Translations under genes and position numbers: made by a program
Assembly: GCA_903932685.1 (NCBI GenBank)
Contig: CAIZGX010000070.1
Span: 1-49,220, forward strand
DNA length: 49,220 bases
Direction: 5' to 3'
DNA from: an uncultured Bacteroidota bacterium
GTDB taxonomy: Bacteria > Bacteroidota > Bacteroidia > Flavobacteriales_D > Sanyastnellaceae
The notes under the pieces: model-generated
What the model saw: only the letters and a program-made list of their open reading frames with translations
Told to the model about the DNA's origin: nothing
Database searches by the model: none
Shown: piece after piece, positions 4,651 through 41,439 of the stretch
Numbering within the stretch: the first letter of the stretch is position 1
Layout of the letters: each line of letters begins with the position of its first letter

Positions 4651-5004
4651 ATGAAAACCAAAACCAAAGCTAGCGCGCCAAAGGCCGCTAAAAAAGCTGC
4701 CGCTCCTAAGAAAGCCGCTGCTAAAAAAGCTGCTGCTCCTAAGAAAGCTGCTGCTCCAAAAAAAGCTGCTGCTCCTAAGAAAGCTGCTGCTAAAAAGGCT
4801 GCTCCTAAGAAAGCTGCTGCTCCTAAGAAAGCCGTTGCTAAAAAAGCTGCTGCTCCTAAGAAAGCTGCTGCTAAAAAGGCTGCTCCTAAGAAAGCTGCTG
4901 CTCCTAAGAAAGCTGCTGCTAAAAAGGCTGCTCCTAAGAAAGCTGCTGCTAAAAAGGCTGCTGCTAAAAAGGCTGCTCCAAAGAAAGCTGCGAAGAAGAA
5001 ATAA
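4651..5004 (+). CDS. Histone H1-like Lys/Ala/Pro-repeat protein
   Basis: The 117-residue protein is made almost only of Lys, Ala and Pro, as repeats such as KKAAAPKKAAAK from residue 9 to the end. It resembles the C-terminal tail of eukaryotic histone H1 and bacterial Hc1/AlgP-like DNA-binding proteins, which compact or coat DNA through charge. No globular domain is visible. The in-frame DNA is a tandem array of AAGAAAGCTGCTGCT-like units with only a few synonymous changes, so copy number could vary between strains. It stands alone, with a strong terminator after it, as expected for a highly expressed small gene. The DNA-binding role is inferred from composition. Confidence 0.8.
   Translation: MKTKTKASAPKAAKKAAAPKKAAAKKAAAPKKAAAPKKAAAPKKAAAKKAAPKKAAAPKKAVAKKAAAPKKAAAKKAAPKKAAAPKKAAAKKAAPKKAAAKKAAAKKAAPKKAAKKK
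4687..4998 (+). repeat. In-frame tandem repeat in the H1-like gene
   Basis: Units of 12-21 bp built from gctgctgct, cctaagaaa and gctaaaaag are repeated over about 310 bp. Most units are identical at the DNA level, including third positions, which suggests recent slippage or recombination rather than selection on protein alone. Confidence 0.85.
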
Positions 5005-29851: not shown

Positions 29852-30610
29852 GTGAGACCTACTACATCATCATCATCGAAATCGAATTTAATCATTGGCA
29901 TTCATCCTCTGGAAGAAGCTCTTGATGCTGGGAAAAACATTGATAAAGTTCTTTTCAACAAAGAATTACGCAGCGATAAATTGCGTCAGTTGAAAGACCG
30001 CTTGAAAAAAGAAAAAATCCCCTTCGTACTTGTACCCGAAATAAAACTCAATAAAATAACCCGCTCCAATCACCAAGGTGTTCTGGCGTTCATGGCTCCA
30101 ATTGCTTTTGCAGATTATGAGAATGTGGTTATAAATGCTATTGAAAGTGGCGAGCCACCTTTGTTTCTGATTCTCGACCGCGTAACAGATGTTCGGAATT
30201 TCGGAGCTATTTGTCGCTCGGCAGAATGTTTCGGAGTAAAAGGAATAATAGTGCCTGAAGTAGGTGCAGCGCAAATAAACGAAGATGCACTCAAAGCTTC
30301 GGCTGGTGCGCTCATGCATTTGAACATTTGTAAAGTAAAAAACTTGCTCGACGCATTAGACTATTTACACGCCTCTGGAATCGGCTCCGTTGTTCTTTCT
30401 GAAAAGGCCACTGTGAGTCTTCAAGAATTTCAAAAAACGCGTGATCAAAATTTGGGAATGTGTATCATTATGGGCTCAGAGGAAGATGGAATTAATCCGC
30501 AACTCATGAAACGTGCGCACCAGTTGGTGACCATTCCTATGAAAGGACAAACCAGTTCTTTGAACGTTTCAGTTGCCGCAGGAATCGCCCTTGCATCATT
30601 AACAGCTTAG
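29852..30610 (+). CDS. rlmB: 23S rRNA 2'-O-ribose methyltransferase RlmB / TrmH family
   Basis: A SPOUT methyltransferase that uses SAM to methylate a ribose in 23S rRNA (G2251 in E. coli for RlmB). The C-terminal knot motifs are clear: DRVTDVRNFGAICRSAECFG, IIMGSEEDGI and IPMKGQTSSLNVSVAAGI. The N-terminal domain starts at NLIIGIHPLEEAL, which is the usual RlmB start. A longer frame runs back to 29642 inside the previous gene, but the GTG at 29852 follows a perfect -7 element and gives 252 residues, the normal size. Other TrmH-type methylases are possible. The end overlaps the convergent barrel gene by 4 bp. Confidence 0.9.
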   Translation: MRPTTSSSSKSNLIIGIHPLEEALDAGKNIDKVLFNKELRSDKLRQLKDRLKKEKIPFVLVPEIKLNKITRSNHQGVLAFMAPIAFADYENVVINAIESGEPPLFLILDRVTDVRNFGAICRSAECFGVKGIIVPEVGAAQINEDALKASAGALMHLNICKVKNLLDALDYLHASGIGSVVLSEKATVSLQEFQKTRDQNLGMCIIMGSEEDGINPQLMKRAHQLVTIPMKGQTSSLNVSVAAGIALASLTA

Positions 30611-32169
30611 AATCTTACTCCAAACGAAAAACTAACTTGCACGATTAAGTTATCGATGCTCGCCATTGAAATCAATGAAGGGTCATAGAGGAAATACCCA
30701 TCCTTATTCTTGGTAATCATCAAAGCACCGTCGCAATAGAAATCGTCTTTTTTATACCCACCACCGACATTCCAATTGAACAGAGGCTCTGCAGGTTTTT
30801 GAGCGAGTTCGGTGTAAACCGACGTTCTATATCCTACGCCAGCTCGCAGACGATAGACATCTCCCAAACGAAACTCGGTTCCCAATCTCGCTTTATGCAC
30901 TCGCTTGAAATTCTCCTGAATCGCCTCGTTTTCTAAAGCGAATTCTGACGTTCCGCCTGTAATTCCATACATCACCATTTTCGAAAAATCAGAAGACTCG
31001 TAGTCTGCAGATAAAATTCCAAAATTCCCAAGGATTAAGGCTGCGCCCGCACCAACTGCAGCAGGTGTTTGAAAACCATAGTCAAATACATTTTTGTCAG
31101 AAGAATAACTGTAAGGTGTCGCCCCAATGCTACTCACCATCTTCGCTGTATAATTATCGCTAATGGATTGCTTGCATGAGGAATGCCAAAACGCTCCCAA
31201 ACGAACATATGGACTCGGAACATATTGAACACCTAATTTGGCTTGAACCGAGGGACCTTTTGTTACAACATCGGAAGTGTTATTGTCTTCGATCAAAGAA
31301 TAATTGATAGCGGTGCCATTGGAAGAAAAAGATTCGGAATACGTCGAATTTTTCTCAAACACCACTTTTCTAAATGCAAGTGAAGCCCCAAAAAACAGCT
31401 TCTCTTCAAACGCACGCGCCACGCTTAAACAGGTCTCTCGAACATATCCCTTCTCCTCAACATGCTGACGGCGAGTGAAGGTGTTGTTGTCTATGTTCAC
31501 ATGCACATAAGGATCGACAGTTCCGGGATTAATTAAATAGGTTTCCCAAGCTAATCCTGCGCCGAAAGGGAAAGATGATGTCACGTCAGAATTAGCGGGA
31601 TTGTATTCATTCAGCTGTGCCGTGTATACATCGAGCAAGGAAGACTGATTATCGCTCGATTCTAAATCGTATTTCCTTTTAAAAGACTGAGTTCTGCCGT
31701 AAGCCAATCCGTAGATCCAAGGACCCCATCCAGAACCCGCTGTTCCGAATGTTGAGGTAAATCCAAAGGTATTTATTCCCAAGCCCGTTGAGCCGGTTGA
31801 AGAAACTCGGTTGTTAAAATCGACTTGCGTGGATCGCGAAAGCAAACTCAATCCAAACTCCATGTTCTGCTTTTTATATGCAGCAATACCGGCCGGGTTT
31901 TGGAAGAAGTTCGTGATGTCTGCACCCAATGCTGTATAGGCTCCACCCATGCCAATGGCGCGATTGGAATATGCGCCGAACGTGTTCGAGAAGCGAAGCG
32001 CGTCGTCTTCATTCTGCGCAAAAACAACATTAAAACTCAGCAAAAAAATACATGAAATTGAAACAGCTCCCCCCTTGCGAAGCACCTTGTGCAACACCTT
32101 GCTGTGCATCTTGAAAAACACCTTGTACAACACCTTACCGTGCAACTTTGGAAAAATCTTGCTTCGCAT
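30607..32169 (-). CDS. Outer-membrane beta-barrel protein, OmpP1/FadL-like, with repeat-built N terminus
   Basis: The mature part starts DDALRFSNTFGAYSNRAIGMGGAYTALGADITNFFQNPAGIAAYKKQN, which is the standard opening of Bacteroidota OmpP1/FadL-type proteins that carry hydrophobic compounds. It continues as a long barrel ending in Phe (VSFSFGVRF). The unusual part is the N terminus: before the signal core (ISCIFLLSFNVVFAQ) there are about 30 basic residues made of K-V/M/L-x-x tetrapeptides (KVLHKVLRK), encoded by the 12-bp repeat array. A GTG at 32085 would give a normal signal peptide without it; the ATG at 32169 overlaps the upstream stop as TGATG. It is second in the operon after the low-complexity lipoprotein. 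Confidence 0.82.
   Translation of the reverse strand: MRSKIFPKLHGKVLYKVFFKMHSKVLHKVLRKGGAVSISCIFLLSFNVVFAQNEDDALRFSNTFGAYSNRAIGMGGAYTALGADITNFFQNPAGIAAYKKQNMEFGLSLLSRSTQVDFNNRVSSTGSTGLGINTFGFTSTFGTAGSGWGPWIYGLAYGRTQSFKRKYDLESSDNQSSLLDVYTAQLNEYNPANSDVTSSFPFGAGLAWETYLINPGTVDPYVHVNIDNNTFTRRQHVEEKGYVRETCLSVARAFEEKLFFGASLAFRKVVFEKNSTYSESFSSNGTAINYSLIEDNNTSDVVTKGPSVQAKLGVQYVPSPYVRLGAFWHSSCKQSISDNYTAKMVSSIGATPYSYSSDKNVFDYGFQTPAAVGAGAALILGNFGILSADYESSDFSKMVMYGITGGTSEFALENEAIQENFKRVHKARLGTEFRLGDVYRLRAGVGYRTSVYTELAQKPAEPLFNWNVGGGYKKDDFYCDGALMITKNKDGYFLYDPSLISMASIDNLIVQVSFSFGVRF
32074..32169 (+). repeat. Degenerate 12-bp tandem repeats (array A), inside the coding region
   Basis: About eight units of pattern CTTG-N5-CAY lie in register: CTTGCGAAGCAC, CTTGTGCAACAC, CTTGCTGTGCAT, CTTGAAAAACAC, CTTGTACAACAC and three more degenerate ones. 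On the minus strand they encode the basic n-region of the barrel protein. The first 27 bp match array B at 38903-38929 in all but one base. Confidence 0.75.
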
Positions 32170-33272
32170 CAAGGTCTCTTACCTGGTGAAGTGGAACGAG
32201 ACGGTGAACTGTGAGATGGCGTGCTTGTTCTAGCAGGGCTAGTTGTTTTCGAAGGGGTACTATGCGTTGGTGCGCTGTGAGAAGGTGTTGATCGAGAAGG
32301 AGTACGGCTCGGCGAACTATAGCTCGGCGCTGGACGAGACGGGCTGCTGTGCGCAGGGCTCGTTGTGCTTGGAGTTGAACGCGAAGGTGTTGCGTAAGTT
32401 GGCGAATTGTAGTTCGGCGCTGTGCGCGCTGGAGCAGGCGTCGACGGAGAAGGAGTTCTTCCTGGTGAAGTATATTCAGGAGTACCTGCTGAACGAGAAT
32501 TTGCAGGGGCCGAATAATTTCCGTTTGATCTAACTGTTGTCACTGGCTTCGGCGTGCGCGAAATTTCCGCAATCGGTTGAACCAAGTTTTTTTGAAGTAC
32601 CCCACGATGATAGGTTGAAGAATTTCCGGTTCCTACGCTTGTAGGTCTACGATGGTGATGAGTGACATTGGCCGTTTCTCCGTTTCCGTTTGAACCTCCA
32701 CCCCAACCATTTCCATTGTTGTTATTGTTATTTCCATACCATCCATTTCCATAACCACCCCATCCCAAACCACCCATTCCATATCCATAAGGGTTGAAAC
32801 CATATCCACCACCATAGGGGTTATATGAACTGTAAGGATTGTAACCGTATGAATTATACCCATAGGGATTGTAACCAAATCCGTTGTTCCCATAATTCCC
32901 ATAACCTCCGTAATTGTTAAACGGAATGCTTGAACCGAAGCCCATTCCAAATCCACCGCCATTGCAGTAATTCGAAAAAGCATTCAATCCGTAACTCAAC
33001 TGCCACCCGCTAACTGGATTAAAAGTCGCTCTTGGATTTGTTCCTCCGTTCACAGAATTTGCACGAGTTGCAGAGTTCGGGTCATAATAATCGTCTCCCC
33101 CCACTGCAGCGCTCGCCACCAAGGTATTGTCGTAAAACAACTCCTTTCCGTTCCAATACATTTCATCATCTTCCGCACGGGTACGATCATCCGTCAAATT
33201 TTCAAAACTTGCACAAGAACTCAATGCAAGAACTGCCGTGAAGAAGAAAAAATTTCGTTGTAACGCTTTCAT
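32169..33272 (-). CDS. Low-complexity lipoprotein (Gly/Asn/Tyr-rich then Ser/Pro/Thr-rich)
   Basis: The 367-residue lipoprotein (LALSSC, Cys20) has three parts. Residues 20-100 look folded. About 100-195 is rich in Gly, Asn and Tyr with repeats like NPYGYNSYGYNPYSSYNPYGGG, ending in a run of Asn. After a His-rich HHHRR, about 245-367 is almost pure Ser, Pro and Thr with Arg, in blocks such as SPSRTPSRSTPSHSAP. Such sequence is typical of flexible or self-associating surface proteins, possibly glycosylated on Ser/Thr in this phylum. Function unknown. It precedes the barrel gene with a TGATG overlap, so both are translated together. Confidence 0.8.
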   Translation of the reverse strand: MKALQRNFFFFTAVLALSSCASFENLTDDRTRAEDDEMYWNGKELFYDNTLVASAAVGGDDYYDPNSATRANSVNGGTNPRATFNPVSGWQLSYGLNAFSNYCNGGGFGMGFGSSIPFNNYGGYGNYGNNGFGYNPYGYNSYGYNPYSSYNPYGGGYGFNPYGYGMGGLGWGGYGNGWYGNNNNNNGNGWGGGSNGNGETANVTHHHRRPTSVGTGNSSTYHRGVLQKNLVQPIAEISRTPKPVTTVRSNGNYSAPANSRSAGTPEYTSPGRTPSPSTPAPARTAPNYNSPTYATPSRSTPSTTSPAHSSPSRPAPSYSSPSRTPSRSTPSHSAPTHSTPSKTTSPARTSTPSHSSPSRSTSPGKRP

Positions 33273-33310
33273 AATCGTATGGATTTGATAGTTTAAAGGT
33301 AATAAGGTTT

Positions 33311-33318
33311 TACATTTG
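33311..33318 (+). promoter_or_regulatory. -7 promoter element (TACATTTG) for proS
   Basis: Perfect TAnnTTTG, 22 nt before the ATG at 33341. A TTTG at 33285-33288 could be the -33 element, with a spacer of 22 nt. Confidence 0.6.
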
Positions 33319-33340
33319 CTTCTTCGAAAAAAGAAAAAAA

Positions 33341-34810
33341 ATGGCCGAGAAAATTCCTACAAGAAAAGACGACTACTCCAAATGGTATAACGAACTCGTG
33401 ATGCAAGCCGATTTGGCGCAACACAGCGAAGTGAAAGGATGCATGATTATTAAACCTTACGGCTATGCCATTTGGGAAAAGATGCGCGATCAACTGGACA
33501 TTCGCTTCAAAGAAACGGGACATCAGAATGCCTATTTCCCTTTGTTGATACCGAAAAGCTATTTGAGTAAAGAAGCTGCGCATGTCGAAGGGTTCGCCAA
33601 AGAGTGTGCCGTTGTCACCCACTACAGACTTAAGTCAGAAAATGGAGGTGTTGTCGTAGATCCAGATGCAAAATTGGAAGAAGAATTAATCATCCGTCCA
33701 ACCAGTGAAACCATCATTTGGAACACTTACAAAGGCTGGATTCAGAGTTACCGCGACCTTCCATTGCTTATTAATCAATGGGCGAATGTGGTTCGTTGGG
33801 AAATGCGCACGCGTCTCTTTTTAAGAACCGCTGAATTCTTGTGGCAGGAAGGACACACCGCGCATTCAACTGCGCAAGAAGCGATTGAAGAAACAGAGCG
33901 TATGCTCGATGTATATGCAGAGTTCGCAGAAAACTTTATGGCCATGCCAGTTGTGAAAGGAAGAAAATCTGAGAGTGAACGTTTTGCAGGAGCCGTGGAC
34001 ACCCTGTGTATTGAAGCTTTGATGCAAGATGGAAAGGCGCTTCAAGCGGGCACTTCACATTTCTTGGGTCAGAACTTCGCGAAAGCATTCGATGTGAAAT
34101 TCGCAACGAAAGAAGGAAACACTGAATATGTATGGGCAACTTCTTGGGGAGTAAGTACGCGATTAATGGGAGCATTAATCATGACGCACAGCGACGACAA
34201 AGGACTTCGTGTTCCGCCTAAGTTGGCACCTATTCATGCTGTTATTGTGCCGATTTACAAAGGTCTTGAGCAACTCGAAGTGATTCGCGAAAAAGTTCTT
34301 CCATTGGTGAAGGCACTTAAAGCGAAGGGCATTGTTGCTAAGTTCGACGATGATGACAGCAAGCGCAGCGGATGGAAATTCGCTGAATACGAATTGAAAG
34401 GTGTTCCTGTTCGCTTGGCCATTGGACCAAAAGATTTGGAAAACGGAACGGTTGAAATTGTACGTCGCGATACTTCAGAGAAATCTACAGTTAACTTCGA
34501 AGGTGTTGAAAGTACCATTGCGCAATTGTTGGAAGACATTCAAGCGAATATGTTCAACCAAGCATTGGAGTTCAGAAATGGACACATGACAGAGGTTGAC
34601 GATTACGAAACGTTTAAAAAACTTCTCGACGAAAAAACAGGATTCTTCTCAGCGCATTGGGATGGAACTGCAGAAACAGAAGAGCGTATTAAAACCGAAA
34701 CCAAAGCTACCATTCGTTGTATACCGCTCGACGGGCCTATTGAACCTGGAGTTTGCATGGTAACCGGAAAACCAAGTGAGCGACGTGTATTATTCGCAAG
34801 AGCTTATTAA
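33341..34810 (+). CDS. proS: Prolyl-tRNA synthetase (archaeal/eukaryotic-like type)
   Basis: A class II aminoacyl-tRNA synthetase of 489 residues, the shorter form without the editing insert found in E. coli. It starts [20 protein letters not shown]. Landmarks are class II motif 1 ([18 protein letters not shown]), motif 2 ([31 protein letters not shown]), the motif 3-like [22 protein letters not shown], an anticodon-binding domain around 290-400 and a C-terminal zinc-type domain ending RRVLFARAY, which often ends in Tyr in this subtype. A hypothetical gene follows after 1 bp. Confidence 0.96.
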
Positions 34811-34811
34811 T

Positions 34812-35483
34812 ATGGAAACGAAAGAACAAATACTTTCATTACTCAAAAACAAAAGCGTTTTAAAGCAAGACGTTTTTCACAACACCATTGCGCAGTTCAA
34901 TTCGTTGAAGAATGTTTTAAAAAACACCATTCAAGAATTAACCGATCAATTTGGAAATACCGATTCACGCGTTTCGTTTGAATACCGCGACAGAGGTGCC
35001 TTTCAGTGTGAAGTGCGTGTTGCAGGTGACTTGCTAATCTTTCAAATGCACACCAATGTTTTTCAGTTCGAACAAGAAAGTAGTTTTTGGCAAACGGGTT
35101 ATTTAAAGGAGCACCCCGAAAACAGCTATGTTGGAACTATAAACGTGTACAACTTCCTTTCAGATTCTTTCCGTTACGACAGAACAGCTGATGTCGGTTA
35201 CTTACTTGCGCGCGTTTTCATTAACAAAGAAAATCATTTCGTGGCACAAGGAAAGAAGCAATTGGGGATCATGTTCAATGACATTGTCGCTTCAAACTTC
35301 GACACGGCGAGTCAAACAAAATTTGTTGATCAAGTCGTGCTTTATGCATTGAATTTCGATCTACTTATTCCTCCTTATGAAAATCTTCACCAAATAACGG
35401 TAGAGGAAATGCAGGACATTAATCACAGCGGCAGCTTGGCCACTGGAAAGAGAATGGGGTTTCAGTTTAGCACTTTTAAATGA
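34812..35483 (+). CDS. Conserved-looking protein of unknown function after proS
   Basis: With the ATG at 34812, 1 bp after the proS stop, the protein has 223 residues. It has no signal or membrane helix. The first 50 residues are helical (METKEQILSLLKNKSVLKQDVF), followed by a mixed alpha/beta domain with SRVSFEYRDRGAFQCEVRVAGDLLIFQMHTNVFQF and VYNFLSDSFRYDRTADVGYLLARVFIN. An upstream ATG at 34776 lies inside proS and looks wrong. I do not recognise the family. The position after proS suggests shared expression rather than shared function. Confidence 0.75.
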   Translation: METKEQILSLLKNKSVLKQDVFHNTIAQFNSLKNVLKNTIQELTDQFGNTDSRVSFEYRDRGAFQCEVRVAGDLLIFQMHTNVFQFEQESSFWQTGYLKEHPENSYVGTINVYNFLSDSFRYDRTADVGYLLARVFINKENHFVAQGKKQLGIMFNDIVASNFDTASQTKFVDQVVLYALNFDLLIPPYENLHQITVEEMQDINHSGSLATGKRMGFQFSTFK

Positions 35484-35540
35484 GTAATAAGCAAAAACTT
35501 ACTCTCTGATAAAATCTGAACGCAACAGCTGGTATATTCC

Positions 35541-35548
35541 TATTTTTG
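35541..35548 (+). promoter_or_regulatory. -7 promoter element (TATTTTTG)
   Basis: Perfect TAnnTTTG, 25 nt before the ATG at 35574, in an otherwise featureless gap (35484-35573). Confidence 0.55.
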
Positions 35549-35573
35549 ATAAATCTATACACCTCTCAAGCAA

Positions 35574-36299
35574 ATGAAAAAAATACTGTTCGGAATTATT
35601 AGTGTTGTAATTCTTGCTTCTTCTTTTAGTTCTTGTACGGTTGAAAAGCGCGTTCATCAGGACGGTTATCACATTTCATGGAAGCACCGTCATACTGCTC
35701 CTGCGCACAACGCTTCTGAAATTACATTACAAGAAGAAGTTATAATTCCTGAAACACCTGCGTTCACTCTCGAAAAACCGAACGTTCATTCGGAGGAAAG
35801 TATATCGGCGAGCAATTCTGAGAACCTCGTCATCCAACCACAGAGGCGCATCATTCTTCTAGCGAAGAAAGACACTGTTATACCCGATCAGCCAAAAACG
35901 CAAGAAGAATACTTCAGCAATACGTATACTCCTCCTGCGCGTCCAGACGAATTGCAAGACATTAAATTAGCGAATTGGGCTTTGGGCTTGGGTATTGGCG
36001 CCGTTTCTGCTCCTGTTTGGGGTCTGGTGCTCTTTTTTATTTTAGCTGCTTTGCTTAGCGCTAGTTCGTCTAGCTTTTCAATATGGGCTGCCTTTGGTTT
36101 TGCATTCCTTCTTGGAGGGGCGTTATTCATAACAATGGAGATCTTAGCCATCATCTTTGCTATTCGCTTTTTAAAGCTGCACGCCAAAGATCCTAACTAC
36201 GCCAAATACCGCAAGCGAGCTATCACCGCTTTAATTCTTGCAGGTATTTATCCGGCGCTCTTGTTGCTGAATATTATATTAGCCCTTGCGGTAATTTAA
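35574..36299 (+). CDS. Lipoprotein with C-terminal multi-helix membrane domain
   Basis: The 241-residue protein begins with a lipoprotein-type signal (VVILASSFSSC). Residues 25-125 are polar and disordered-looking. The C-terminal 110 residues contain three hydrophobic helices (GLGIGAVSAPVWGLVLFFILAAL, AAFGFAFLLGGALFITMEILAIIF and ALILAGIYPALLLLNIILAL) with short basic loops. A lipid anchor and inner-membrane helices in one protein is unusual; similar proteins with DUF4190-like helices occur in Bacteroidota. Function unknown. A terminator follows at once. Confidence 0.75.
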   Translation: MKKILFGIISVVILASSFSSCTVEKRVHQDGYHISWKHRHTAPAHNASEITLQEEVIIPETPAFTLEKPNVHSEESISASNSENLVIQPQRRIILLAKKDTVIPDQPKTQEEYFSNTYTPPARPDELQDIKLANWALGLGIGAVSAPVWGLVLFFILAALLSASSSSFSIWAAFGFAFLLGGALFITMEILAIIFAIRFLKLHAKDPNYAKYRKRAITALILAGIYPALLLLNIILALAVI

Positions 36300-36312
36300 T
36301 TTTTGAACCAAC

Positions 36313-36344
36313 AAAAAACCCTCAACTTTCGTTGAGGGTTTTTC
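36313..36344. terminator. Rho-independent terminator between the lipoprotein gene and tRNA-Glu
   Basis: Stem CCCTCAAC / GTTGAGGG (36319-36326 with 36331-36338), loop TTTC, with A-tract before and T-tract after, usable in both directions. It also ends transcription coming from the minus-strand tRNA. Confidence 0.93.
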
Positions 36345-36347
36345 TTG

Positions 36348-36419
36348 TAGCCCGTAGGGGAATCGAACCCCTGTTTACAGAATGAAAATCTGCTGTCCTA
36401 ACCCCTAGACGAACGGGCC
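36348..36419 (-). tRNA. tRNA-Glu (UUC)
   Basis: The minus strand folds as a tRNA: acceptor GGCCCGT pairs with ACGGGCT (one G-U), D arm GTCTAGGGGTTAGGAC, anticodon stem CAGA/TCTG with loop TTTTCAT (anticodon TTC) and T arm CAGGGGTTCGATTCCCCT. The 72-nt gene does not encode CCA. It reads codons GAA and GAG. It lies alone, with the lipoprotein terminator directly 3' to it, which can also end its transcript. Confidence 0.97.
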
Positions 36420-36489
36420 GTTTGGGTTTTGTGGCTGCGAATATACCACCTTTTTGCATTTCCACAAGCATTCAAACAAAAAAAAAAAC

Positions 36490-37164
36490 TTAAAGACCAA
36501 TTACTACTCCCGCCTTAATAAAATAAGGTCCGCCCCAAGCCAACTCGCAATTCACCCCCACCTTCTTGCGATAAGGGAATCCTGTAAATCCCAACGCCAC
36601 CAATTGATATTCAGTTAGTCGAGTGCCAAAAGACTTTTTATCGAAATTCACATTCGCTGTATTCTCGCGTATGCCATACCAATTGAGATTCGTGCTTATT
36701 CCCGTGTACAACAAACAACTTGTCTTCTTGAATCCGAATATCTTACGCTTCTTCATGTGCTGAATGTTATACGAAAACAACAACCGAGCGCCTGCTGTGC
36801 TTTTGTTTATGGACCAACTTACATAAGGATCAACTGCTAAATCTCCCATCTGATCGACATACCTGTAATCAGTTGCGTTCACGCTTAAGGACTGACTGGT
36901 AATACTAAATCCGAAAATTACTCGCCACTTCTTGCGCGATCCTTTCGTTAATGAAAAATCACCCGCAAAGCTCAACGACGGATAAAACGACCTGCTCACT
37001 GTTGCGCTTGAATCGGATAACTCGCTAATATCTGCTCTAAAATTGAACAAATTATAACTCACTCCCGCAGACAACAATCCATCCATTCGCTTTATTTGAG
37101 CAAATGATGTAAAGGAAAATAACACTACTAGAACAAACAGTCCTACGAACGGCAGTCTTTTCAT
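36490..37164 (-). CDS. Exported beta-rich protein, probable small outer-membrane barrel
   Basis: The 224-residue product has a signal peptide (LFVLVVLFSFTSFAQ) and regular alternating strands (RSFYPSLSFAGDFSLTKG, WRVIFGFSITSQSLSVNATDYRYV, TAGARLLFSYNIQHM), ending in VNCELAWGGPYFIKAGVVIGL, as in small barrels. The family is not recognised. A near-consensus -7 element, TATATTCG, lies upstream on the minus strand. The 70-bp gap downstream (36420-36489) is AT-rich with no feature apart from the tRNA flank. Confidence 0.7.
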   Translation of the reverse strand: MKRLPFVGLFVLVVLFSFTSFAQIKRMDGLLSAGVSYNLFNFRADISELSDSSATVSRSFYPSLSFAGDFSLTKGSRKKWRVIFGFSITSQSLSVNATDYRYVDQMGDLAVDPYVSWSINKSTAGARLLFSYNIQHMKKRKIFGFKKTSCLLYTGISTNLNWYGIRENTANVNFDKKSFGTRLTEYQLVALGFTGFPYRKKVGVNCELAWGGPYFIKAGVVIGL

Positions 37165-37214
37165 CTAAGCTAAGATTTAAGCGAATATAAAGGGTTTTTC
37201 GTAAATTGCTATTT

Positions 37215-37634
37215 ATGAAGACGCTACTTAACCATGCCCTCGGACTGCTTTTCGTCCTGTTTTGTCTGAACATGTCTGCACAAACTGAGACAGGGAAGGC
37301 ATCCTTCTACCACAACAAATTTGAAGGGCATGGAACTTCAAACGGAGAAGTTTTTCGTCAAAAAAAATTCACCTGCGCTCACAAAACACTTTCCTTTGGC
37401 ACCTGGCTGAAAGTCACATGTCTCAAAAACAACAACGTCATTTACGTGCGAGTGAACGACCGTTTACCCAAATCTTCCAAGCGCTGTATAGACCTTTCCC
37501 TCCTAGGTGCTGAAAAACTAAACTTCGTGCGCAGCGGACTCACTCAGGTAACCCTGGACATAGTTAAAGAAGAAGATGTGCCCCTTGAATTTCGATCTGA
37601 AATTGAACTGAAAAACAAATCAAAGAAAAAATAA
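37215..37634 (+). CDS. rlpA: RlpA-like septal ring lytic transglycosylase family protein
   Basis: A short exported RlpA-like protein of 139 residues. After the signal peptide (GLLFVLFCLNMSAQ) comes a double-psi beta-barrel: GKASFYHNKFEGHGTSNGEVF at 27-47, FTCAHKTLSFGTWLKV at 52-67 with the catalytic-type His56, and VYVRVNDRLPKSSKRCIDLS at 76-95 with Asp82, matching the active-site His and Asp of RlpA. It lacks the C-terminal SPOR domain that targets many RlpA proteins to the septum, so localisation may differ. The start is the ATG at 37215; a TTG at 37206 precedes it. The gene is divergent from the barrel gene. Confidence 0.85.
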   Translation: MKTLLNHALGLLFVLFCLNMSAQTETGKASFYHNKFEGHGTSNGEVFRQKKFTCAHKTLSFGTWLKVTCLKNNNVIYVRVNDRLPKSSKRCIDLSLLGAEKLNFVRSGLTQVTLDIVKEEDVPLEFRSEIELKNKSKKK

Positions 37635-37676
37635 AAGGCGCCGAAGCGCCCTTTACTCAATAAGACGAATCTTATT
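37633..37676. terminator. Two hairpins between convergent genes
   Basis: Hairpin 1: GGCGC / GCGCC (37637-37641, 37646-37650) with loop CGAA and T-rich flanks on the minus strand. Hairpin 2: AATAAGA / TCTTATT (37659-37665, 37670-37676), also with a CGAA loop, includes the stop codon of the minus-strand lipoprotein gene. They probably terminate both genes; two CGAA tetraloops side by side is a minor oddity. Confidence 0.6.
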
Positions 37677-38145
37677 ATTTTGAAGTCAACTCATTCATCA
37701 ACTGATCGTAACGCAATGTTTCGATGTTAACGATTGTAGTAGCTGTTTTTTCGTGCATTGTAACCACGCGAACTTGATAGTCCATGGTTGGCGCAGTAGT
37801 TACGTCCAATCCAACAATTCCACCTGCTGTTGCATCGTAAGTATAAGTGTAACCTGCTATCGGATGCCAAGAGCTTGGACATGGATTCCAGTATCCGTAT
37901 TCGTCCTGAACATAAACCAATGCAATTCCCTTGTCCATTACATCCTGATTAATAATTGCACATGGGTATTCAACGTAAGTTGAAGTAGCCCAATCAGCTG
38001 CAACCGAAGTAAAGGTGTAAGTAGTAAAACTTCCGTCGTCACCAGCAACTCCAGCAGGACCAGAAGGACCAGAAGGACCTTCCTTGGTGCAAGATGTAAA
38101 TGCAAGTGTAGCAATAGCTACCATAGAAAAAAGAACTTTTTTCAT
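37675..38145 (-). CDS. Lipoprotein with short collagen-like stretch
   Basis: A 156-residue lipoprotein (ATLAFTSC, Cys19). Right after the Cys is a collagen-like GPSGPSGPAGVAGDDGS linker, then a compact domain rich in Tyr, Val and Thr (YTFTSVAADWATSTYVEYPC, QVRVVTMHEKTATTIVNIETLRYDQL). Similar small lipoproteins with a GPxG linker are common in Bacteroidota, of unknown function. The linker likely acts as a spacer from the membrane. The DNA of the linker is a short GGACCAGAA-type repeat on the plus strand. The 164 bp upstream (38146-38309) is AT-rich, with no gene seen. Confidence 0.8.
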   Translation of the reverse strand: MKKVLFSMVAIATLAFTSCTKEGPSGPSGPAGVAGDDGSFTTYTFTSVAADWATSTYVEYPCAIINQDVMDKGIALVYVQDEYGYWNPCPSSWHPIAGYTYTYDATAGGIVGLDVTTAPTMDYQVRVVTMHEKTATTIVNIETLRYDQLMNELTSK

Positions 38146-38309
38146 TATTAATAAATTAATTTTTGCCCTACTCTATTTTTTTGTTGGCTTTTCGGTTCCG
38201 CCATTCGCAAGCAAGATAGGTGATTAAAACTAAATCCGAATTATTCAAAATGACGCGTTTTTTTTGACTTGTCCAAAAATAATCCGTTGTTACTACTTTA
38301 GCAGGAGCG

Positions 38310-38921
38310 ATGAAGAACCCATTATCGAAAAATATCTTTCTGTCTCTCTTGCTTGTGCTTTTTCTAGCTCAAGGTGGAATTGGCTATTGGGTGCTTCAAC
38401 ATAAATTGTGGTTGGTTAAAAAAGAGATGAAAGCACTTGTTCTAGGCAGCGTTGAAGAAGATAAGCTAACCCCCATTCATTTATCCGAAGCTGAATTCAA
38501 ACAACTGGAATGGCCCGAACCTTGGGAGTTTTTGTACAATGGAAACATGTATGACATCTCACGAAAAGAAATTCACAAAGACGGCTCCGTTACTCTTTAT
38601 GCCATTATGGATACTGAGGAAAATGAACTGAAAGCAAAGGTTCGATCGCTCGTAAAAAACTCTTCCGACAAAAAACAAACGCAGGAGCAGCTCAACTTCT
38701 TCTACAAATTCCAATCGCAATGGACCTGCGATTTCGATTTTGTAGAAATTCCATTTTACGAATCTCGTTCCAATCATTTCGCAACAAATCGTTTTTTCAT
38801 TTCATCTCCACACGTTCGTCTCAACGAACTTCCTCCCAATTCTTTGAAAGATGCGTTGCAAGATGTTTCACAAGGTTCTACGAAAGGAATCTTGGATAAC
38901 GTCTTGCGAAGCACCTTGTGA
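38310..38921 (+). CDS. Membrane-anchored protein of unknown function; C terminus made by repeat array B
   Basis: The 203-residue protein starts with a transmembrane helix (IFLSLLLVLFLAQGGIGYWV) and continues as a soluble periplasmic domain with LEWPEPWEFLYNGNMYDISRKEIHKDGSVTLYAIMDTEENEL. The family is not recognised, though such anchored proteins are often found before TonB receptors in this phylum. Its last residues (NVLRSTL) and the stop come from the first units of the 12-bp repeat array, suggesting that repeat growth replaced or extended the natural end. A TACTTTAG near-consensus -7 element lies about 10 nt upstream. Confidence 0.7.
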   Translation: MKNPLSKNIFLSLLLVLFLAQGGIGYWVLQHKLWLVKKEMKALVLGSVEEDKLTPIHLSEAEFKQLEWPEPWEFLYNGNMYDISRKEIHKDGSVTLYAIMDTEENELKAKVRSLVKNSSDKKQTQEQLNFFYKFQSQWTCDFDFVEIPFYESRSNHFATNRFFISSPHVRLNELPPNSLKDALQDVSQGSTKGILDNVLRSTL

Positions 38922-38998
38922 AACACCTTTCCTCCGGAATCTTGCTTGCATCTTGTAAAGCACCTTTCCGCAGGAATCATGCTTCACATCTTTCAAAG
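38891..38998 (+). repeat. Degenerate 12-bp tandem repeats (array B) with a 37-bp higher-order copy
   Basis: Units CTTGGATAACGT, CTTGCGAAGCAC and CTTGTGAAACAC are followed by two copies of a larger unit (38924-38960 and 38961-38998), each containing a small TTCC-N3-GGAA palindrome, CTTGCTTGCAT or CATGCTTCACAT, and CTTGTAAAG or CTTTCAAAG. The core at 38903-38929 matches array A at 32074-32100 in 26 of 27 bases. It spans the end of the upstream gene and the gap before the TonB receptor. Confidence 0.75.
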
Positions 38999-39027
38999 AA
39001 GTTAACGATTAACAAATAACATCTACA

Positions 39028-41439
39028 ATGAAACGTACATTTCTATGCGCAGTGCTTGCAATAGCTAGCCTATTCATTGCGCATGCACAAACCATAACGG
39101 TTAAAGATTTAACGACTCTTGAAGTCATCTCGGGTGCTTCTGTTTATTTATCAGCAAACAACATTGAACTTCCTGACTTCATTGGAAATACAAACAACGA
39201 GGGTATCATTGGCCTTCCAAAGCATTTCGGAAGTTTCATGATTACCGCTAATGGTTACGAAGTGAAGTACCTGCCCGCGCAAGAGGTCTATGAAGGCATG
39301 GACGTTTTTTTAGTTGGTTCAAACATTACCCTTTCACAAATGGTCATCTCGGCAACGCGCCTAGCGAACAAATCTGAATTCGTGGCACAACAAGTAAGCT
39401 CAATTCAACGAAAAGATATTCAATTTATTAATCCAGCGAATGCTGCTGACCTTCTTGCACAAACAGGTACAGCACTCATTCAAAAAAGTCAGTTAGGCGG
39501 TGGCTCTCCTATTCTTCGAGGATTTGAAGCGAACAAAGTGCTTTTCGTAGTTGACGGCGTTCGAATGAACAACGCCATTTATCGCGGTGGTCACTTGCAA
39601 GACATCTTGAGCCTTGATCCAATGGCTATGGAGAACGTAGAAATTGTCTACGGACCAAGCGCGGTTGCCTATGGTTCTGATGCATTGGGTGGAGCAATGA
39701 GCTTTAATACGCGATCACCGCGCTTTACCTCTGGAGACAGGCTCGTTCGTGGAAACGCCATGCTACGATACAGCACTGCCGACCAAAGTGCTACTCATAT
39801 TAATCTTGAAACTAGTACTGAACGTTTTGCAACATTTACAGCTCTTAGCTCCAATAATTTCGGAGACCTTCGACAAGGAAATATTCGAAATCCGAACTAC
39901 CCCGCGTTTGGAGCACGTCCCTGGTATGTTGAACGAATCAATGGAAGAGACAGTGTAATTACCAACTCGAATCCCAATGTTCAAGTGGGTTCTGGCTACA
40001 GGCAATATGACTTCATTGAAAAAATTTCATTCAAGCAAAGCAATAAGCTAACGCATACACTAAACATTCAATACTCAACAACAAGCAATGTCCCTCGCTA
40101 TGATCGCTTAACGCAAGTGACAATAGAAAACCCCCGCTTCGGAGAATGGTATTACGGTCCGCAAACACGCTCAATGGTGGCCTATCACGCAACCCTTTCG
40201 AACGGGAACAAACTTTACAACACGGGGAAAATCACATTGGCTTGGCAGAAAATTAATCAATCGCGTCACGACAGGTTATTCAATAGCCCAAACCTGAACA
40301 ACCGTTTAGAGAAGGTACAAGTGTATTCTGTAAATGCCGACTTCTCCAAAAGCCTTGGAGAAAGAACAACGGCGAATTATGGATTAGAATATTACTTCAA
40401 CGATGTAACGAGCACTGCGAATTCAGAAAATATTTTTACTGGTGCTATAAGCGCTTTGGACACACGCTACGCCAACGGAGGGTCCACCATGAGTGGTACT
40501 GCGGCCTATGGGACCGCCATTCTGAAAGTAACCCGAAAAATCACATTGAACGCTGGACTTCGCTATTCACTTGTAAATCTCTCTGCCTTATTCCTCGACA
40601 ATTCGTTCTTCAACTTCCCTTTCTCAGATGTCAATCAATCGAACAGAAACCTTAACGGAAGTATCGGCATCATTGTAGCACCGAATTCGAAATGGCGTGT
40701 CATAGCCCTTGCTAGCACCGGCTTCCGAGCTCCAAATGTCGACGATCTTTCAAAAGTTTTCGAGAGCAACGCGGGAAATTTAATTGTTCCGAACAATGAA
40801 TTGAAGCCTGAAAAAGTCACCAATGTCGAAGCTACCATTGAACGCAAATTCAACGGAAAAACAACTCTTGCTCTGAACGGATATTACATGATCTACACCA
40901 ACGCTTTAACCACAGGTAAAGCGCAATTCAACGGTCAAGATTCTATTTTTTACGATGGAACGCTAAGTCCAGTTTACACAACCGTGAATGCAGCCGAAGC
41001 CTTCATCTATGGCGGAAACATAACGTTCAATTCACAAGTCAACGATCAATTCAGCATGCAATCCTCTGTTGTGTATACATACGGTAGAATTCAATCTAAC
41101 ACAGGCGAAACGCCTTTAGATCACATTCCTCCTGTTTACGGAAAGACAGGCTTCACCTTTCAACAAAAAAAATTCCGTGGAGAATTTTCAGTGTTGTACA
41201 ACGGTTGGAAACGAATTGCAGATTACCGCTTAGAAGCCGAAGACAACGAGGCTTACGCAACACCTGATGGCATGCCTGCTTGGTACACATTAAACGCAAG
41301 AGGAAGTTATCAATTAAACGAAAAGTTTCAGTTGATGGTTGGATTGGAAAATATTTTAGATGCGAATTACCGTGTCTTCGCTTCGAATATTTCAGGAGCA
41401 GGAAGAAACGTCACCTTCACACTTCGCGGTCGTTTCTAA
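39028..41439 (+). CDS. TonB-dependent outer-membrane receptor
   Basis: An 803-residue receptor for energised uptake across the outer membrane. Signal peptide, then a carboxypeptidase-regulatory-like beta domain (about 20-95, ITVKDLTTLEVISGASVYLS), a plug (about 115-225: VISATRLANKSEFVAQQVSS, RGFEANKVLFVVDGVRMNNAIYRGGHLQDI, VEIVYGPSAVAYGSDALGGAMSF) and a 22-strand-type barrel to the last Phe. The plug most resembles haem/haemoglobin-type receptors of the phylum, so haem, a siderophore or another metal complex is likely; the substrate is not provable here. No TonB box was read with confidence. Its 3' end overlaps the convergent lipid kinase by 23 bp. Confidence 0.93.
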   Translation: MKRTFLCAVLAIASLFIAHAQTITVKDLTTLEVISGASVYLSANNIELPDFIGNTNNEGIIGLPKHFGSFMITANGYEVKYLPAQEVYEGMDVFLVGSNITLSQMVISATRLANKSEFVAQQVSSIQRKDIQFINPANAADLLAQTGTALIQKSQLGGGSPILRGFEANKVLFVVDGVRMNNAIYRGGHLQDILSLDPMAMENVEIVYGPSAVAYGSDALGGAMSFNTRSPRFTSGDRLVRGNAMLRYSTADQSATHINLETSTERFATFTALSSNNFGDLRQGNIRNPNYPAFGARPWYVERINGRDSVITNSNPNVQVGSGYRQYDFIEKISFKQSNKLTHTLNIQYSTTSNVPRYDRLTQVTIENPRFGEWYYGPQTRSMVAYHATLSNGNKLYNTGKITLAWQKINQSRHDRLFNSPNLNNRLEKVQVYSVNADFSKSLGERTTANYGLEYYFNDVTSTANSENIFTGAISALDTRYANGGSTMSGTAAYGTAILKVTRKITLNAGLRYSLVNLSALFLDNSFFNFPFSDVNQSNRNLNGSIGIIVAPNSKWRVIALASTGFRAPNVDDLSKVFESNAGNLIVPNNELKPEKVTNVEATIERKFNGKTTLALNGYYMIYTNALTTGKAQFNGQDSIFYDGTLSPVYTTVNAAEAFIYGGNITFNSQVNDQFSMQSSVVYTYGRIQSNTGETPLDHIPPVYGKTGFTFQQKKFRGEFSVLYNGWKRIADYRLEAEDNEAYATPDGMPAWYTLNARGSYQLNEKFQLMVGLENILDANYRVFASNISGAGRNVTFTLRGRF

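Follow-up and report, generated by a model that had tools for sequence, protein, structure and literature searches.

Introduction

Several short palindromic repeats have been described that resemble, in part, the arrays reported here. Rickettsia palindromic elements (RPE) are given a length of about 150 bp and are described as lying in frame within unrelated metabolic genes (PMC10969869). The GTAG and CGTC REPs, with REPINs and RAYTs, appear in the description cited as 20-40 bp palindromes, i.e., hairpins beside a GTAG or CGTC tag, with an associated Y1 transposase; they form tandem clusters and inverted pairs, sit at gene ends and lie in some cases within genes (PMC3733652). The short palindromic repeats of Volvox organelle genomes are portrayed as 'selfish' hairpins of 50 nt on average that share a frequent loop sequence and insert into one another; the description consulted names no 12-nt in-frame period (PMC2670323). 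On a smaller scale, the oligonucleotide d(GCGAAGC) is reported to form an exceptionally stable GNA-loop mini-hairpin that melts at 78 C (PMC4686876).

Here, we analyze two repeat arrays within a stretch of 49,220 nucleotides (the window) from a member of the Flavobacteriales, as well as their counterparts in related genomes. Like RPE, the arrays are present in frame in unrelated protein-coding genes; by their description RPE are set apart, since here a 12-nt mini-hairpin forms variable arrays with many intergenic copies. As in REPs, a hairpin adjoins a tag, while the unit has 12 nt instead of 20-40 bp, the tag is AAGRT instead of GTAG or CGTC, and no Y1 transposase shows a matching distribution. 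We regard the 12-nt family as a new form among bacterial palindromic repeats and as a member of neither RPE nor REPs, although by analogy it may be said to work like the former and to look like the latter. The literature searched (mostly outside subscription journals) yielded no published description of the unit; its letters occur in some papers, one of them, as far as its indexed text goes, on Francisella small RNAs. At a given site, closely related species of one genus may have a longer array, a shorter one or none. Both arrays of the window probably belong to a selfish family of spreading palindromic repeats whose expansion took place in this genus of Flavobacteriales.

Core match and host genes

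The features of the window are as follows.

30607..32172, minus strand: FadL/OMPP1-type barrel gene, host of array 1, which lies at the gene's 5' end
32074..32169, minus strand: array 1, units 1-8, i.e., eight 12-bp units CTTGCGAAGCAC, CTTGTGCAACAC, CTTGCTGTGCAT, CTTGAAAAACAC, CTTGTACAACAC, CTTACCGTGCAA, CTTTGGAAAAAT, CTTGCTTCGCAT
32074..32100, no strand: first copy of the 27-bp core, inside array 1
38310..38921, plus strand: gene that hosts array 2, with 203 aa and without Pfam family
about 38848-39001: array 2 as a whole, forward arm, then reverse arm
38848..38886, plus strand: forward arm of array 2, AAGATGCGTTGC AAGATGTTTCAC AAGGTTCTACGA AAG
38903..39001, minus strand: reverse arm of array 2, CTTGCGAAGCAC CTTGTGAAACAC CTTTCCTCCGGAAT CTTGCTTGCAT CTTGTAAAGCAC CTTTCCGCAGGAAT CATGCTTCACAT CTTTCAAAGAAG, with unit lengths from 11 to 14 bp
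38903..38929, no strand: second copy of the 27-bp core (26/27), inside the reverse arm of array 2

An initial annotation had reported that both arrays share a 27-bp core. Direct reading of the two sites confirms this, i.e., 32074-32100 and 38903-38929 are identical in 26 of 27 bases with one mismatch. The core consists of CTTGCGAAGCACCTTGTG and nine further bases, at 32074 and again at 38903, and its first copy covers two units and the beginning of a third. With up to three mismatches, the first 16 bases (CTTGCGAAGCACCTTG) match the window 8 times compared to a mean of 0.44 and a maximum of 3 in 100 shuffles, and the first 18 bases match the whole genome 49 times compared to 5 for the reversed control. 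Given this excess over shuffles in the window and over the reversed pattern in the genome, the match is not due to chance. Many copies both at gene ends and inside genes, together with the presence/absence and length variation seen among relatives, bear out the dispersed, growing family that the annotation had proposed.

On the plus strand, the units of array 1 read CTT-xy-NNN-y'x'-AY. Both stem positions pair in 5/8 units, while units 4, 6 and 7 are incompletely paired. The likely ATG start of the FadL-type gene (32109-32107) falls within unit 3, such that the signal peptide would take its basic N-terminus from the array. All 8 genomes with the FadL gene have an array here, with differing unit numbers. 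One of its units reads gtAAAac in G006, gtAAAgc in G007 and G011, and gcATAgc in G010 (units matched by order), as expected if pairing persists via a wobble step. The DNA adjoining array 1 diverges strongly between genomes of the genus; the adjoining gene (32169-33272, minus strand) is rich in N, G and Y in its middle part and ends in a tail of the PSRSTPS type.

Relatives of the 38310 gene align up to about residue 178, and array 2 supplies the remaining residues and the stop codon. Both arrays had been placed inside genes; this holds for array 1 at the 5' end of the FadL-type gene, whereas array 2 extends past the stop into intergenic space. An alignment of six genomes at this site shows the forward arm in G000, G012 and G010, a variable reverse arm, and neither arm in G005. 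In the parts read from G005, G007, G008, G011 and G012, the window's region shows no further strong array to our detector; G011 has a weak two-hit cluster within the region and a 15-hit array past the window's end.

A search with Rfam 15 over window positions 31500-39500 gave no match above gathering score for the arrays; only a tRNA passes, and the single sub-threshold hit in array 2 is mir-329 (22.1 bits, cut-off 76.8). A near-threshold DUF805b motif (38165-38204, minus strand, 33.1 bits vs. a gathering score of 35.6) sits upstream of an ORF without Pfam hit that contains GPSGPSGPAG (37675-38145, minus strand). Elsewhere in the window (4651-5004, plus strand), a 117-aa ORF consists almost entirely of AAPKKAAAKKAA-type repeats and presumably resembles histone H1-like proteins.

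Unit structure

Read on its AAG strand, the unit is 12 bp long, follows AAGRT-xy-NNN-y'x' and occurs mostly in tandem arrays. We searched for three AAGRT at 12-bp spacing with the seven intervening bases left free, which yields 100 matches in the source genome vs. 0 for the reversed pattern; for two AAGRT, the counts are 223 vs. 105. Both patterns detect the AAGRT spacer only, and mini-hairpin arrays with other spacers would escape them.

Of the units that the triple pattern chains in the source-genome stretches, 129/142 pair at both x and y; the proportion is 69/79 for loci in seven further genomes of the genus, compared to 2/45 for 21 loci from other genera with chance tandem matches. For 49 distinct seven-mers, 88% and 90% are paired at the two stem positions, while shuffled means are 31% and 49%. 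The covariation score of 64 distinct units is 0.59 (shuffled 0.165), a value reached by none of 500 shuffles and by none of the slid versions, and 92.2% of cells are paired vs. 68.7% in shuffles (again 0/500 as high). Two of the five measures of this test separate poorly, i.e., double-sided changes (499/500 shuffles as high) and further pair types (13/500). All four Watson-Crick pair types are seen at x as well as at y; the third pair, T-A, is invariant in the unit set because the search pattern fixes it. An ordinary minisatellite, i.e., one tandem unit free of structural constraint, is ruled out since unit stems differ yet covary.

The stem rule holds for 102/109 units in arrays classed in-gene and for 86/95 in those classed intergenic, where the classes were sorted by hand, some 'inter' clusters overlap ORFs judged spurious or overlong, and five clusters, among them both arrays of the window, are excluded. 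Read on the CTT strand, 145/204 units have a GNA loop (81/109 in-gene, 64/95 intergenic), compared to a background rate of 0.075. The commonest unit, GCTTCGC/GCGAAGC, is present in 19/37 clusters. Its sequence, d(GCGAAGC), is a laboratory oligonucleotide motif that, to our knowledge, has not been known as a genomic repeat family. Judged by its letters, i.e., the GNA loop and the common C-G closing pair, the unit is a d(GCGAAGC)-type mini-hairpin, and we infer that such hairpins form in cells. At the Ppx/GppA phosphatase site of G006 (L314), units have longer stems (AAGGTTGGCGAAGCCAAAGG), thus stem length is not fixed.

Same-strand neighbours closer than 60 bp (n=168) are spaced by 12 bp in 139 cases, by 36 bp in 11 and by 24 bp in 7. 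The 37 clusters detected in the source genome span 27 to 284 bp; 15 run forward-reverse, 9 forward only, 9 reverse only and 4 are more complex, and a simple reverse-then-forward cluster is not among them. The forward-then-reverse order makes a palindrome at cluster level, where the array changes direction. With covarying mini-hairpin units and such composite clusters, the initial view that the repeat is not a clear palindrome has to be revised. In some elements the arms mirror one another and can fold together. Folding z-scores below -2 were obtained for 13/36 arrays vs. 2/36 controls with DNA energies and for 12/36 vs. 3/36 with RNA energies, i.e., the whole-element folding signal over shuffles is only moderate.

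Copies within the source genome

The cluster catalogue covers 31 stretches with 258,238 bases of the 2.37-Mb genome and is thus a lower bound. Applied to the reversed sequence, the same detector reports 7 clusters, and some two-hit clusters among the 37 are chance, e.g., C70:1939. All genomes compared are draft bins in many contigs; the end of C11 and the start of C49 appear to be one place split by a contig break, and so do the ends of C64 and C68. The 28-bp core GGTGCTTCGCAAGACCTTCCGNAGGACC has 11 exact positions in the stretches read, which amount to about five unrelated places when tandem copies and contig-end twins are merged. Favoured single units each recur in 5 to 19 of the 37 clusters. 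That is, the AAGRT spacer, the favoured 7-mers and the exact core are common to unrelated sites, which points to copying.

At C53:31700, C64:131046 and C68:62612, the array fills the gap between convergent genes and lies a few bases from both stops. Other arrays sit inside open genes, namely those for a phosphoglucomutase (PGM), a GT2 glycosyltransferase, a Ppx/GppA phosphatase and a GNAT acetyltransferase in the source genome, and for acetyl-CoA synthetase (Acs), shikimate dehydrogenase (AroE) and aspartate kinase in relatives. For PGM, Ppx/GppA and Acs the in-gene assignment is based on empty or shorter alleles, for aspartate kinase, GT2 and AroE on domain position only. Such copies in genes, and their variation among relatives, fit the annotation's comparison with palindromic elements that insert into genes.

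The reading frame used by most in-gene arrays yields hydrophilic G/D-x-x-Q/E/K peptides; another frame is used at the FadL start and in the array that follows the signal peptide in a GH3/beta-lactamase protein (C24:2902). With x=A, the main frame would contain TAA; this is seen in 0/109 units classed in-gene vs. 6/95 in other arrays. For Acs and aspartate kinase, solved structures align on either side of the insert; the AlphaFold model of the G008 Acs has a mean pLDDT of 37 and was not used.

Occurrence among genomes and orthologous sites

Tandem matches number 39-171 per genome in eight of the nine genomes of the genus, compared to 0 to 5 for the reversed controls. G005, which is assigned to the genus, has 0, and the remaining 105 of the 114 family genomes have 0-3 each. 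We also sampled the order (399 genomes, those of the family among them) and the phylum (395 genomes); among the matches listed, no other genome comes near the genus's counts. G348 has 14 tandem matches (control 1) that, among the ten listed, are largely AAGGTT/AAGATT runs; the values for G671 (23, control 10) and G620 (8, control 2) count the spacer pattern only. Among the genomes searched, the AAGRT spacer is restricted to the genus. In a FastTree tree, G005 has a long branch and missing data, and we make no use of its placement; G005 may be a deep outgroup or mis-assigned to the genus.

An exact 17-mer search returned 90 stretches in genome contigs and 18 in viral contigs, mostly chance as judged by array content; none of the 18 viral stretches carries an array. 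Multi-unit arrays are found in L072, L074, L103, L124 and L147 and a two-unit array in L148. Where they overlap, L072 and G009 are identical, as are L074 and G010, and flanks are genus-like in L103, L124, L147 and L148, and not in L139 and L140. The latter, a Bacteroidales record (CADCDP010000015.1), shows two adjacent paired units at 1348-1374, i.e., outside the genus, possibly by chance. L072 and L103 (CAMDFE010000013.1, CAMCVP010000018.1) belong to bins deposited as Chryseobacterium gleum and carry the genus's arrays. Given the identity of L072 with G009, whose record is titled likewise, at the overlapping locus and the genus-like flanks of L103, these labels are probably wrong.

Orthologous sites differ in the presence as well as the length of arrays. 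For Ppx/GppA, we measured between two conserved motifs: the array-free sites of G005 and G012 span 84 and 90 bp, respectively; with array the span is 165 bp in G008, 168 in G011, 192 in G006, 261 in G000, 273 in G009 and 297 in G010. The PGM span measures 132 bp in G005 and 180 to 240 bp in G008, G012, G000, G007 and G011. The Acs comparison, which leaves out G006, G009 and G010, gives 153 bp for the empty sites of G000, G012 and G005, and 219, 249 and 267 bp for the occupied ones of G007, G011 and G008, respectively.

Since the Acs sequences of G000 and G012 are close to that of G005, their sites look never occupied. At Ppx/GppA, on the other hand, G012 keeps a small palindrome where its relatives' arrays begin, such that loss is as likely as absence there. 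The three occupied Acs alleles have a changed right flank in common, which suggests one insertion, likely followed by sorting or exchange between species. No target-site duplication was noticed, and flanking codons differ too at Acs. Among array regions of other genomes, 9/16 match array regions of the source genome by their flanks, and these counterparts leave ongoing mobility unproven. For G008, five of ten array regions are without counterpart among the source-genome stretches read; the Acs site alone was traced in the source genome.

Discussion

Taken as members of a spreading palindromic repeat family, the arrays would most simply reflect an expansion within the genus after its split from G005. 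Mini-hairpins might form on single-stranded DNA during replication and let arrays grow, shrink and be recopied through slippage and template switching. In-gene copies would be tolerated as the 12-bp period keeps the reading frame open, and some copies may later have been co-opted into gene starts and stops. Hairpin-driven replication errors most likely keep the repeat in motion; the carrier to new sites lies outside this proposal. No enzyme for it was found, the Y1 transposase being present in 4/8 array-rich genomes and not detected in the richest, and we count the one-direction clusters (18/37) against it.

Mobility of any kind is dispensable if chance palindromes turned into mini-hairpin arrays by slippage and template switching, independently at each site, a local mutational process that we hold to be improbable, though it deserves consideration. 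Yeast template switching is reported to homogenise inverted-repeat arms and to alter coding DNA (PMC8604942), and could thereby yield matched stems without selection. The variable unit number at orthologous sites and the variable stem length in G006 agree with such a process. It is at odds with the sharing of the AAGRT spacer, favoured 7-mers and the exact 28-bp core among unrelated places, and it presupposes activity in the genus, yet not in G005.

It is unlikely that the arrays are host-functional elements under selection, e.g., terminators, mRNA-stability hairpins or nucleoid-protein binding sites. Several do end within few bases of convergent-gene stops, and the FadL array, which is present in 8/8 genomes with the gene, carries the likely start codon. 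Function of this kind fits poorly with arrays in frame inside enzymes, with unit numbers that range from none to many between close relatives, and with the array-free PGM, Ppx and Acs sites of G005.

The REP/REPIN system, i.e., short hairpins behind a conserved tag mobilised by a Y1 (RAYT) transposase, is a very improbable source. A tag beside the hairpin does recall the GTAG REPs as described (PMC3733652), and so may the paired inverted orientation, seen in 15/37 clusters vs. 18/37 with one direction only; Y1_Tnp (PF01797) genes occur in 4/8 array-rich genomes. G007, G009, G010 and G012 yielded none; completeness is 71-85% for three of them, while it is 96% for G010, the richest in arrays. 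Conversely, 22 array-free family genomes contain Y1_Tnp, and two of the genus's six Y1 genes were inspected and have no array nearby (one lone unit-like hit lies about 0.65 kb away). RAYT-driven spread was rejected, as the distribution of the Y1 transposase does not track the arrays. Least credible of all is selection for flexible GASQ/GRSE/DVSQ-type peptide linkers that shaped the DNA repeats, for although the hydrophilic frame and the lack of x=A in genes would suit it, the same covariation and loop preference in intergenic-classed arrays already contradict it as sole cause.

Returning to the spreading repeat family, we tentatively consider a further reading, which may well prove wrong: a minimal parasite, i.e., a 12-nt GNA-loop mini-hairpin that would propagate as a single-stranded DNA structure without a transposase of its own, edit its own stems into matching pairs, and seed length-variable loops into the genus's housekeeping proteins via its four-codon period. 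If the reading as a spreading repeat family is right, the repeat would be a self-spreading DNA element of very small size that follows a readable structural rule. The Acs genes of G007, G008 and G011 vs. those of G000 and G012 provide natural occupied/empty pairs. Both the spread of a palindromic repeat without evident transposase and the entry of foreign peptide loops into conserved enzymes would then become testable.
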